From: a virus
IMG/VR virus record: IMGVR_UViG_3300020182_000153
Coordinates: 1-27,297 of that record
Direction: 5' to 3' (one strand)
DNA length: 27,297 bases
The notes under the pieces are model-generated. The model did no database searches. It worked only from the letters and a program-made list of their open reading frames with translations, and had not been told where the DNA came from. Of this stretch, positions 22,201 through 27,297 are shown one piece after another. Both the position numbers and the translations under genes were made by a program. Position 1 is the stretch's first letter. Each line of letters begins with the position of its first letter.

Positions 22201-22750
22201 GGCTTCGCCCCGCTTCTTTGTCCATCCATTCCCGTAAAGACATACTTGATTTTGATCTGTTGCAAGATTTGCATGAGCACACTAAGTTGCTAGCTTCACT
22301 TGTGCCGCCTTTAACCACGGGCCAAAGATGATCTATCTCAAACGGACCTTCTGTATCGCCGCAATAAACACACATTTCCCCATCTCGTAATGAGATTTGG
22401 TTCCTAATCGTCTGTGTTGTCGCTGGTCTTGATCCCTGCTTTGAAATTACAATGATTGAATCATCCGAAATTCGAATATAATCATGCTGTATATCAAAAA
22501 ACCTGCTCAAATCTCTTGTGGATTCAAGCCATTGCTTTTTAGAGCAGTAAAGAACTCTCTTTAAGATTTTTATGTCGTTTTCGATTTTAGGATCGTTTGA
22601 CGGCTCACCCATCGTATGAACTGTTTGTGCGCCCAAATGATAAGCAAGCGAACACGCGATACCAAAGCTTGTTGGATTAACAAAATGCAATGGACTAAGA
22701 TTTATCGACATATGTTCTAATCTGGGCCAGTCGCGCGGAAATAAACTCAT
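22193..22750 (-). CDS. HNH endonuclease with an N-terminal replication-like domain
   Basis: 185 residues. The C-terminal half is a zinc-supported HNH nuclease: MCVYCGDTEGPFEIDHLWPV (C127, C130, D140, H141), KGGTSEASNLV (N155) and CSCKSCNRSK (C160, C163). The N-terminal 100 residues contain NDIKILKRVLYCSKKQWLES and LSRFFDIQHDYIRIS, a pattern like the DUF1376 domain of phage and prophage replication proteins (low-confidence resemblance). Free-standing HNH genes at cos/terminase are common; here it sits inside the replication operon between RusA and the initiator, ATGA-coupled to RusA. It may cut or nick DNA in replication or be a homing-type nuclease domesticated by fusion. Confidence 0.85.
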   Translation of the reverse strand: MSLFPRDWPRLEHMSINLSPLHFVNPTSFGIACSLAYHLGAQTVHTMGEPSNDPKIENDIKILKRVLYCSKKQWLESTRDLSRFFDIQHDYIRISDDSIIVISKQGSRPATTQTIRNQISLRDGEMCVYCGDTEGPFEIDHLWPVVKGGTSEASNLVCSCKSCNRSKSSMSLREWMDKEAGRSHD

Positions 22751-23184
22751 CCCTGTTCTCCCATTGGTGTTATTGTTACAAAGCCATCGTCTTCAATAGC
22801 GTCTGGTGAGAAAGGGCTTGCCTCTTGTATTATGAAGCACATGTTGCCGTTTTTGACTGGCTCGACTAAATGAGATTTTTCCAAGTCAAACTTGCTGTCA
22901 TCAATGCCAAGCGCGTCTGAAATACCATCTAGATAAGCCTTGGTTGCCGCATCACACCCGTCTTTGTCCCTGCGGTTACGATTAGGCGGGGAATAGATGC
23001 GCGTGACAGAAACGCCGAACTGGAACGAGTATTCGCTAAATGTAAGTCCGCGTGTTGCGGCTTTCGTCATTAGGTGAGCGTCACCACGGGCTTTTTTCGT
23101 TGCTTTGGCCTTTACTGCCCAATGTACCCTTGCATTAGGTGAAAGGTTTTTGTCAGGCCAAGGAAGGTTAATTGCAAACTTCAT
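22747..23184 (-). CDS. rusA: RusA-like Holliday junction resolvase
   Basis: 145 residues. The signature is PPNRNRRDKDGCDAATKAYL followed by DGISDALGIDDSKFD: acidic residues D73, D75 and D95/D96 match the metal-binding Asp residues of E. coli RusA, although the usual RDxDN is RDKDG here. N-terminal LPWPDKNLSPNARVHWAVKA is also family-like. It resolves Holliday junctions made by recombination-dependent replication, fitting the Rad52-type protein in the rightward operon. First gene after the hairpin-rich leader. GAGG is 11 nt before the ATG, rather far. Confidence 0.92.
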   Translation of the reverse strand: MKFAINLPWPDKNLSPNARVHWAVKAKATKKARGDAHLMTKAATRGLTFSEYSFQFGVSVTRIYSPPNRNRRDKDGCDAATKAYLDGISDALGIDDSKFDLEKSHLVEPVKNGNMCFIIQEASPFSPDAIEDDGFVTITPMGEQG

Positions 23185-23216
23185 CTATTCCGTTTCCTCT
23201 TTCTGCCCAATCGCAG

Positions 23217-23280
23217 TAAAATAAAAAAGCAGGACAAAGTGAAATCCAAGTTGGCGACGGAGACGACACCCCGCCCTGCT
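23217..23280 (-). terminator. Leftward terminator directly before rusA
   Basis: AGCAGG (23280-23275) pairs with CCTGCT (23233-23228); the 41-nt interior can fold on GGCG/CGCC. The stem is followed by TTTTTTATTTT, a strong U-tract. The long interior makes efficiency uncertain. Confidence 0.55.
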
Positions 23281-23313
23281 CTTGACCCGCCGTATTTGGG
23301 TAACGACGAATTT

Positions 23314-23358
23314 AAAAAAGGCGAAGGTGGGAGTTAGGGACGAGGCTCGACCACCTTC
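23314..23358 (-). terminator. Leftward terminator, upstream member of the pair
   Basis: GAAGGTGG (23358-23351) pairs perfectly with CCACCTTC (23330-23323) around a 20-nt loop; GCC and six T follow at 23319-23314. Confidence 0.5.
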
Positions 23359-23360
23359 TA

Positions 23361-23396
23361 AGATAACGCAAGACATGGGAGGATGCTGCGTTATCT
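23361..23396. repeat. 10-bp perfect inverted repeat
   Basis: AGATAACGCA (23361-23370) and TGCGTTATCT (23387-23396) with a 16-bp spacer. It has no T-run on either side, so it is either an RNA hairpin acting on the following terminators or a protein-binding operator. Its leftward loop carries CCTCCC, the complement of a Shine-Dalgarno. Confidence 0.75.
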
Positions 23397-23404
23397 ATTT
23401 GAAC

Positions 23405-23509
23405 TCAAAGGACGTGCAAAAACGCCCACCAAATTGACAACACCACAAAGCAAGCCGCAATGATGAAAAACATAATTCCTGCCGTTTGTTTTATATCTTT
23501 CAGTGACAT
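23405..23509 (-). CDS. 34-residue single-helix membrane protein
   Basis: MSLKDIKQTAGIMFFIIAAC is followed by FVVLSIWWAFLHVL. One transmembrane helix fills residues about 11-32. Its ATG overlaps the Cro-like gene's stop (TGATG), and that gene's last codons supply CAGGAG about 10 nt earlier. Too short for family assignment; coupling to the first leftward early gene means it would be made immediately after induction or infection. Possible roles include exclusion or control of host membrane functions; no evidence decides. Confidence 0.6.
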   Translation of the reverse strand: MSLKDIKQTAGIMFFIIAACFVVLSIWWAFLHVL

Positions 23510-23748
23510 CATTCTGCTAGCTCCTGAGATTTTACACCAACCAGCCACTCGTAAGATATACCTGAAATGCCCTGTTTTTTTGATGCTTCAATTAGCTTTT
23601 TCCAATGAATAGAAGCGATTGAATTACGCTCCTTCATTTTTCTTGCTGTTTGATACTTGCAGCCTAAATCAGTCGCAAAATCTGACAAATTAGGCCACTG
23701 GTTAATCAAATCTGTGAAGTCTTTTGGGTGTTTGTTTAATTTAGTCAT
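23509..23748 (-). CDS. Cro-like helix-turn-helix regulator (carph-isopro type)
   Basis: 79 residues from the ATG at 23748 (AAGGGG just upstream); an in-frame TTG five codons earlier is less likely. The pattern INQWPNLSDFATDLGCKYQT, ARKMKERNSIASIHWKKLIE, ASKKQGISGISYEWLV is that of the small HTH proteins often labelled carph-isopro in alphaproteobacterial phages: helix 2-turn-recognition helix spans about 21-40. It is first in the leftward operon and faces a divergent operon, the position of Cro. A 17-bp candidate operator overlaps its ribosome site. It probably represses both divergent promoters. Confidence 0.75.
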   Translation of the reverse strand: MTKLNKHPKDFTDLINQWPNLSDFATDLGCKYQTARKMKERNSIASIHWKKLIEASKKQGISGISYEWLVGVKSQELAE

Positions 23749-23755
23749 AAACCCC

Positions 23756-23772
23756 TTGTACAATATGTATAA
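23756..23772. promoter_or_regulatory. Candidate operator 1
   Basis: TTGTACAATATGTATAA, an imperfect palindrome centred on position 9, directly upstream of and overlapping the Cro-like gene's ribosome site. Confidence 0.45.
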
Positions 23773-23880
23773 TGATATTGCAAGCGAAATTATGTTTTTT
23801 TTATTTTTAATTTATGTGATAAAAACCTAACCTTTAAAAAGTACGGTAAGACTTTGTATTAACTGTTAAATTTAAAATAA

Positions 23881-23897
23881 TTGTACAGTTAGTATAT
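23881..23897. promoter_or_regulatory. Candidate operator 2
   Basis: TTGTACAGTTAGTATAT matches operator 1 at 13 of 17 positions in the same orientation. Confidence 0.4.
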
Positions 23898-23915
23898 TTT
23901 TTACTTGCATAGTAA

Positions 23916-23932
23916 TTGTAAATAATGTACAT
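23916..23932. promoter_or_regulatory. Candidate operator 3
   Basis: TTGTAAATAATGTACAT matches operator 1 at 12 of 17 positions and is itself near-palindromic (TGTA.AT A AT.TACA). It overlaps the possible rightward -10. Confidence 0.4.
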
Positions 23933-23965
23933 TAATCCCAACAACGCAATTAAAGGGATGATAAA

Positions 23966-26436: not shown

Positions 26437-26907
26437 ATGCTCAACTCATGTAATTTTATCGGCCATATCGGAGCCGACCCAGATATCAAAGCTACAAACT
26501 CAGGCACTAGGGTTGCTAACCTATCCCTAGCTGTAACTGAGAAATGGAAAAACAAACAAGGTGAGCGTCAAGAGCGCACAGAGTGGGTTCGTCTCAATTG
26601 CTTCCAGGATGGTCTTATCGGTGTAATAGAGAGCTACATCAAGAAAGGCTCTAAGGTTTACGTCTCTGGAAAGATGGCAACCAGAAAATGGCAAACGCAA
26701 TCTGGTGAAGACCGCTATTCAACGGAAATCAATATCGACAAGCTGGTGATGCTCGACGGTCGCAGTGACAACGCCAACAATTCAGGCGGTAACTATGGTG
26801 CTGCATCACAGGGCGGAGAGTACGTAGGCGACAATGGACTTCGACAAGGCGGTGGCGGGTCATTCCCGACTGATGACGATATTCCGTTTCTCATGGAGTG
26901 GAGATAA
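26437..26907 (+). CDS. ssb: Single-stranded DNA-binding protein
   Basis: 156 residues. The OB fold spans 1-108: MLNSCNFIGHIGADPDIKAT, RVANLSLAVTEKW, EWVRLNCFQDG, KGSKVYVSGKMATRKWQ, YSTEINIDKLVML. A Gly/Asn-rich linker follows, then the acidic interaction tip DDDIPF (about residues 146-151). Unusually, five residues (LMEWR) follow the tip, so the free C-terminal Phe that partner proteins normally grip is absent. Works with the Rad52-type protein in recombination and replication. The ATG is 2 nt after the previous stop. Confidence 0.95.
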   Translation: MLNSCNFIGHIGADPDIKATNSGTRVANLSLAVTEKWKNKQGERQERTEWVRLNCFQDGLIGVIESYIKKGSKVYVSGKMATRKWQTQSGEDRYSTEINIDKLVMLDGRSDNANNSGGNYGAASQGGEYVGDNGLRQGGGGSFPTDDDIPFLMEWR

Positions 26908-26909
26908 TT

Positions 26910-27297
26910 ATGAAGAAAATTACCGAACTAAACGAAGAACAAATCGAACGTCTAACAACAAAACGTAGAGAATGGCTCAATATTGGCCTATCAACTGCTC
27001 GCGCGGACCGTGAACAAGCTCAACAAGGCGCAGTTGAAGCTTATCAAGTAGCAGGGTTAGAACCGCCTAAAGTATTTATCTGGCTAGACTCCCCACGACA
27101 AGGCGTAATGGGCGCTGCGCTGCTAGCAGGCAGTAACTTTTCAGGGGATCAGGTCGGGGCTCAGGTCTGGGATCAGGTCAGGGCTCAGGTCAGGGCTCAG
27201 GTCGGGGATCAGGTCTGGTATCAGGTCAGGGATCAGGTCGGGGCTCAGGTCTGGGATCAGGTCAGGGATCAGGTCGGGGCTCAGGTCGGGGCTCAGG
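26910..27297 (+). CDS. Tandem tetrapeptide-repeat protein (partial, 3' end off window)
   Basis: 129 codons are visible. The N-terminal domain (about 1-78; [40 protein letters not shown]) is helical, then a repeat begins after NFS: thirteen units of [G/W/R][A/D/Y]QV, the last cut by the window. Alternating Gln-Val with Trp/Arg/Gly suggests a regular beta or coil stack. I have a vague memory of [GRW][DA]QV repeats in other phage and bacterial proteins of unknown function. It follows ssb in the rightward operon with GGAG (26900-26903) 6 nt before the ATG. Role unknown. Confidence 0.8.
27144..27297 (+). repeat. 12-bp coding tandem repeat, 12.8 units
   Basis: Unit NGGGMTCAGGTC (one unit has TAT as its second codon). 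Only the first base of codon 1 and the first two bases of codon 2 vary; CAGGTC is identical in all twelve complete units. Phase matches codons exactly. Continues past the window end. Confidence 0.97.

Follow-up and report, generated by a model that had tools for sequence, protein, structure and literature searches.

A conserved hairpin RNA with anti-Shine-Dalgarno-like loops in the early operon of a viral genome, and its likeness to cuckoo-type RNAs

Introduction

What is the function of the noncoding stretch that lies between a Cro-like gene and the replication genes in the early operon of the virus studied here? The window, by which we mean the whole 27,297-bp virus record, carries a leftward operon in which a Cro-like ORF and a 35-codon membrane-peptide ORF are followed by 220 noncoding bases on the minus strand and then by rusA, an HNH gene and a gene for a DnaD-like helicase loader. 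The original prediction read these 220 bases as a three-hairpin leader whose tandem terminators form an attenuator in front of rusA, with an RNA-based antitermination mechanism as one possibility. Here, the leader was re-examined by folding, by comparison with related phages and by searches with models of known RNAs.

Results

Folding of the leader yielded four hairpins, all of them in the leftward RNA (Table 1), and the leader folds far beyond chance (z = -3.9 for 221 nt), with z scores of -5.8, -2.8 and -5.0 for HP1, HP2 and HP4 alone, respectively. The perfect 10-bp and 8-bp dyads and the GCC-T6 behind the second were found exactly where the original prediction had placed them, and the AGCAGG/CCTGCT stem followed by T6AT4 is also present, as part of a longer stem than had been described, with 17 pairs when G-U is counted. 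All three hairpins are therefore real, but their number is four, as HP3, between the second and the third, had been missed. HP1 and HP2, whose stem sequences differ, are 2 nt apart both in the window and in the sister phage described below, and each of the two genomes holds a single copy of the element.

Table 1. Features of the leader and of the genes flanking it, in window coordinates
Feature	Position	Strand	Description
Cro-like small ORF	23509..23751	-	Opens the leftward operon; unmatched in Pfam and PHROG
35-codon small membrane-protein ORF	23405..23512	-	Adjoins HP1 upstream; 54% identity to sister phage
HP1	23361..23396	-	10-bp stem AGATAACGCA/TGCGTTATCT, perfect dyad arms 23396-23387/23370-23361; 16-nt loop GCATCCTCCCATGTCT
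HP1 anti-SD-like loop CATCCTCCC	23385-23377	-	8/9 vs CCUCCUCCC
HP2	23323..23358	-	8-bp stem GAAGGTGG/CCACCTTC, perfect dyad arms 23358-23351/23330-23323; 20-nt loop TCGAGCCTCGTCCCTAACTC
HP2 anti-SD-like loop CCTCGTCCC	23345-23337	-	8/9 vs CCUCCUCCC
T6 tract	23314..23319	-	3 nt past HP2, GCC (23322-23320) between; not conserved
HP3	23285..23311	-	Stem ATTCGTCGT/ACGGCGGGT, arms 23311-23303/23293-23285; loop TACCCAAAU, fully conserved in sister phage
HP4	23225..23283	-	17-pair stem AAGAGCAGGGCGGGGTG/CACTTTGTCCTGCTTTT including G-U, 23283-23267 with 23241-23225
TTTTTTATTTT, 3' end of HP4	23218..23228	-	Not conserved; TTCTTTCAAATT in sister phage
Gene-end remnant, 29 nt	23186..23214	-	From a phrog_35370 relative that the sister phage has intact; provides rusA with its AGAGGA ribosome site
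RusA-like resolvase gene	22747..23184	-	Downstream of the RNA element; phrog_34, E 2.9e-13

A sister phage was reached via RusA (IMG/VR 3300038701_001062; L002, genome G001), with a DNA identity to the window that declines from 93% in the terminase region to ~71% in rusA, and with an HTH/Cro-like gene at the place of the window's Cro-like ORF. Its leader folds with a z score of -7.6, and a MAFFT alignment of the two leaders put all four stems in the same columns. Among the 38 pairs, which were chosen as common to both folds of just two sequences, 13 stem substitutions were found and none of the pairs was broken (2 double and 9 single-sided changes), while the same number of substitutions placed randomly in the stems broke 6-8 pairs on average, and unbroken stems occurred in 0.0005-0.0015% of trials under two null models (P = 5e-6 to 1.5e-5); a shuffle control built into the tool is powerless on an alignment of two rows. 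The HP1 stem is kept with a double change from U-A to C-G, the HP2 block with its flanks is identical at 41 of 42 bases and the HP3 block at 21 of 22, which sets them apart as a conserved island, and HP4 retains 13 pairs despite 7 changed pairs, one of them double. All nine single-sided changes result in G-U on the leftward strand only and in A-C on the opposite strand, so that the leftward RNA is the strand that folds; a DNA cruciform or a rightward RNA is disfavoured on the same grounds. The leader is thus a selected and conserved RNA structure of the leftward strand, and both the conservation of paired bases in a relative, a check proposed along with the original prediction, and the placing of a structured noncoding RNA at a position like that of nutR/putR, within the leftward early transcript, are borne out by the folding and by the sister phage.

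A 63-aa ORF (23376-23185) covers the region and abuts rusA, which would be expected if the leader were a small gene and its folding an accident. This is extremely unlikely, since the substitutions preserve the pairs (P ~1e-5), a 44-nt indel relative to the sister phage breaks the frame, no protein family matches the ORF and the HP2 block lacks a third-position pattern. The ORF was accordingly rejected, in agreement with the earlier statement that the leader contains no credible gene.

We next consider whether HP2 and HP4, together with their T-tracts, halt leftward transcription ahead of rusA, and whether HP1 or another part of the RNA modifies the polymerase in the manner of HK022 put. The place of the element behind cro resembles that of nutR and putR (HK022 putR lies between cro and cII), T-tracts follow HP2 and HP4 in the window, the HP4 stem is strong (-26.7 kcal/mol), another terminator-like hairpin lies downstream on the same strand ahead of the late genes, and no N-like gene was recognised among the ORFs of the window, as had been noted before. 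The sister phage retains the stems and loops but not the T-tracts: the T6 behind HP2 reads CCCTTTTCCC there, the tract behind the last hairpin is absent, and the tandem hairpins of Rhizobium phages described below are followed by no T-tract either. The HP2 loop is moreover 20 nt long, with a 3-nt gap to the T-run. A consensus scan for terminators called neither HP2 nor HP4, the loops of both being larger than its rule allows. After HP2, the sister phage carries GCCCTTTTCCC and a 44-nt stretch missing from the window, and the window's T6 looks like the junction of this indel. At L002 2236-2310, a 12-nt part of that insert (TGAGGCTTGACC) is the complement of the HP2 stem-loop GGTCGAGCCTCG and might pair with it instead, an option absent in the window.

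Lambda tR1/nutR also occupies a noncoding stretch between cro and the replication genes, whereas the window has no recognised N-like gene, unconserved T-tracts and no established nut-like element. HK022 putR likewise forms two adjacent hairpins in the early transcript behind cro; put RNAs, however, are ~70 nt long with bulged stems and conserved paired residues, and there are two put sites per genome (PMC9378689), in contrast to the single-copy element of the window. A covariance model built from HK022 putL and putR (R3), which recovers both sites in HK022, gave no match up to E 10 in the window or at the sister locus. Because the T-tracts are unconserved, the put model finds no match and the element occurs once, tandem terminators or an RNA antiterminator of the kind originally predicted are unlikely here; HP4 of the window may still have a terminator or processing role.

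A feature absent from the earlier reading of the leader lies in the loops of its first two hairpins. The HP1 loop holds CAUCCUCCC and the HP2 loop CCUCGUCCC, each one base off (8/9) CCUCCUCCC, the anti-Shine-Dalgarno (anti-SD) seed of the alphaproteobacterial cuckoo RNAs (alpha-r14/NfeR1 and CcsR). Among 517 hairpins found by a mechanical scan of both window strands, only HP1 and HP2, which are adjacent, have loops that reach at least 8/9. Neither 400 dinucleotide shuffles nor the controls (0.92 Mb of strand-bases, with HK022 and unrelated viral contigs among them) contained a tandem pair of anti-SD loops, and permutation of the letters within each loop gave p = 0.0098 for HP1 and p = 0.018 for HP2; these loop statistics apply to one preset literature motif, picked after a Rhizobium phage had been seen, and not to a blind motif scan. 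In the sister phage, the HP2 seed is kept at 8/9, with the same G inside the motif as in the window, while the HP1 loop is merely C-rich (6/9). The leader might alternatively serve as a processing or stability element, or be recognised by an RNA-binding protein of either the phage or the host (RNase III/E or an mRNA protector), for which the C-rich loops would be ligands; the long perfect stems (17 pairs in HP4) are consistent with this, as are the HP2 block and HP3 loop, which hardly vary between the two phages although the rest of their early regions diverges by 20-30%. Such a site does not predict that CCUCCUCCC-like loops should recur in two neighbouring hairpins across unrelated stems, and we regard it as very unlikely.

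A similar arrangement recurs in cultured phages. The 122-aa phrog_35370 protein that follows the element in the sister phage has Rhizobium phage RHph_I1_23 as its sole match in the phage collection, and the nearest terminase relative of the window is also from RHph_I1_23 (63%); the nearest cultured relatives found thus infect Rhizobium, inside the host group of the cuckoo RNAs. At the same place in its operon, RHph_I1_23 has a 550-nt noncoding gap with tandem hairpins and C/U-rich loops, of which the first contains an exact CCUCCUCCC. BLAST from this gap and from its matches led to RHph_N2/RHEph18, Y25, Y1_10, TM3_3_3/N28_2, I3_18 and Sinorhizobium phage phiLM21. Six cultured Rhizobium and Sinorhizobium phage lineages have tandem hairpins at the matching operon position, their stems unrelated and their loops C/U-rich and in most cases anti-SD: in RHph_I1_23, N2/RHEph18, Y25, Y1_10 and TM3_3_3/N28_2 the pair lies on the sense strand between the small ORFs behind a cro-like gene and the next larger gene, and in phiLM21 between two ORFs, while I3_18 has a single such hairpin and no tandem pair. 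Both loops of RHph_TM3_3_3 and one loop each of I1_23 and N28_2 contain an exact CCUCCUCCC, whereas the first loop of N28_2 and the second of Y1_10 are merely C-rich. The second stem was canonical in 60 of 60 pair cells across six rhizobial phages, with 7 of its 10 pairs varying. Model R1 had its best match in locus L052 at the element, at only 8.9 bits (E 0.26), and the case for homology between the elements of the window and of the rhizobial phages comes from their place, their layout and the type of their loops rather than from sequence.

In several GenBank records of Rhizobium phages, the stretch covering the RNA has been assigned to a hypothetical protein on the antisense strand (L055 2948-3256, L057 1540-1734, L058 1453-1713, L059 1319-1597 and L060 1331-1597), and these proteins are probably spurious. 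Downstream of the tandem pair, L059, L060 and L061 carry a further hairpin block (GGATCCGCTTATTCGCCAGTCGCATGACGACGG...), which is 80-84% identical between RHph_TM3_3_3/N28_2 and phiLM21.

Comparison with Rfam placed the elements near the cuckoo RNAs but below the family thresholds. The window element reached the gathering score of no family, its best alphaproteobacterial match being alpha-r14 at 14.6 bits (E 1.7; gathering 58.8). Scores of alpha-r14 on the rhizobial phage elements ranged from 25.8 to 35.5 bits, the highest being those of N2 and TM3_3_3 (E 0.0035), and RHph_I1_23 matched CcsR1 at 25.6 bits (E 4e-4) and alpha-r14 with E 0.008, all of them under gathering. Membership in a cuckoo family therefore fails the Rfam thresholds, and loop identity is partial. 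Alpha-r14 has three hairpins with a common loop motif and divergent stems (PMC10746234), and its seeds, which are redundant, target the ribosome-binding site of mRNAs such as ntrB and thereby silence them (PMC10746234; also PMC3927594). The window element shares with alpha-r14/NfeR1 (RF02344, the Rhizobiales cuckoo RNA) the consecutive hairpins, the divergent stems, the CCUCCUCCC-type loops and the alphaproteobacterial setting; it differs in lying inside a phage early operon instead of forming a stand-alone gene, in having two such hairpins rather than three, in its imperfect seeds and in the additional structured HP3-HP4. CcsR1-4 of Rhodobacter (RF02791, CIN1 locus) resemble it in carrying two CCUCCUCC hairpins a few nt apart behind a small ORF, and RNase E releases them from the mRNA of that ORF (PMC10253847). 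The small ORF preceding the window element, however, encodes a membrane peptide, and nothing in it points to CcaF1, a DUF1127 protein; nor was the host stress promoter seen at the element.

With moderate confidence, these comparisons point to a functional likeness of the element to cuckoo-type anti-SD RNAs. The reading we favour, and consider somewhat probable, is that the phage carries, in its early operon, a cuckoo-like anti-SD RNA which would base-pair with ribosome-binding sites; we would class the rhizobial phages as the clear cases of this phage-borne variant and the window as a case that has diverged and been truncated. Its front half, HP1-HP2, would be the phage version of tandem anti-SD hairpins, with variable stems and loops near CCUCCUCCC, behind a small ORF of the same operon. 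The element would be transcribed within the cro operon RNA and either freed by RNase processing or retained in the mRNA, and its loops may pair with the purine-rich ribosome-binding sites of target mRNAs, probably of the host, and block their translation as NfeR1 does. HP3-HP4, conserved with covariation, are not explained by a cuckoo-like function.

A different possibility is that the element controls translation of the next gene in cis, together with another hairpin that masks this gene's ribosome site, the anti-SD loops competing for that site or freeing it. The 85 nt upstream of the gene that follows the element fold as a second conserved hairpin in the sister phage (L002) and in eight other loci (L052, L055-L061); in most of the phages it pairs the AGGAG ribosome site (CCUGUG...CACAGGAG) and has an upper CUCC/GGAG stem, and it is likely to be a translational switch. 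The 12-nt complement to the HP2 loop in the sister's insert would also suit control in cis. In the window, however, this hairpin and its gene are deleted, yet HP1-HP4 are intact; the downstream genes belong to different PHROG families (35370, 26665 and 27989), for which a profile comparison gave a weak match of 26665 with 27989 (probability 30) and none for the other pairs; and the loops showed no preference for the window phage's own ribosome sites, that of rusA included, performing no better than shuffled loops. Control of the next gene in cis is, on balance, improbable. As for the deletion itself, the window (23186-23214) lacks the 122-aa gene, its leader hairpin and a 53-aa ORF that the sister phage has between the element and rusA (L002 2410-3000), and retains just the last 29 nt of that gene ahead of rusA.

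The leader DNA had no matches among phages and plasmids, and the exact loop patterns found the sister phage as their only real match among viral contigs, 14 others being without flanking stems, and none in 85k genomes. Protein-led searches of viral contigs with RusA, the helicase loader, the terminase and the 116-aa, early 93-aa and 122-aa proteins found the leader in the sister phage only. In 397 Hyphomicrobiales and 385 alphaproteobacterial genomes, model R1 gave one match of 29.5 bits, inside a coding gene of a GC-rich genome, which was judged to be chance. The element DNA of RHph_TM3_3_3 was not found in the 397 Hyphomicrobiales genomes, and a convincing tandem pair was not found in the chromosomal relatives L053 and L054 upstream of the homologue of the 122-aa protein.

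Discussion

In alphaproteobacteria, the known cuckoo-type RNAs are encoded on the chromosome and regulate stress, nutrient uptake and symbiosis, and the open literature that we searched, a scope that did not include the main cuckoo-family paper (PMC4615179), held no report of phage-borne ones. That the element occupies a fixed place in the early operon of several lineages of rhizobial phages suggests that it serves the virus, for example by controlling host translation. More tentatively, temperate phages of Rhizobiales may carry their own family of anti-SD hairpin RNAs, related to or mimicking the host cuckoo RNAs, which could reprogram host translation or override the host cuckoo/AbcR network during infection. 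The cultured phages RHph_N2, I1_23 and TM3_3_3 make the element directly testable. The case also illustrates that an apparent tandem-terminator leader in one genome can prove to be a different kind of RNA once relatives are compared.

Three further observations concern the window outside the leader. The sister phage encodes a CI-type repressor with an S24 peptidase domain between its divergent early operons, whereas the window has none at 23764-23965, and may therefore be repressor-less. On the minus strand at 18740-18424, ~440 nt ahead of the terminase genes are gene-free (~90% identity to the sister phage over 18730-18424) and contain TTGACA-16-TATCTT and, ~80 nt further, a hairpin GGCAGGGGC/GCCCCTGTC with a T-rich tail behind it; this layout appears pR'-tR'-like and would serve the late genes. 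Finally, a tandem-repeat reading frame at 26898-27296 runs past the end of the record.
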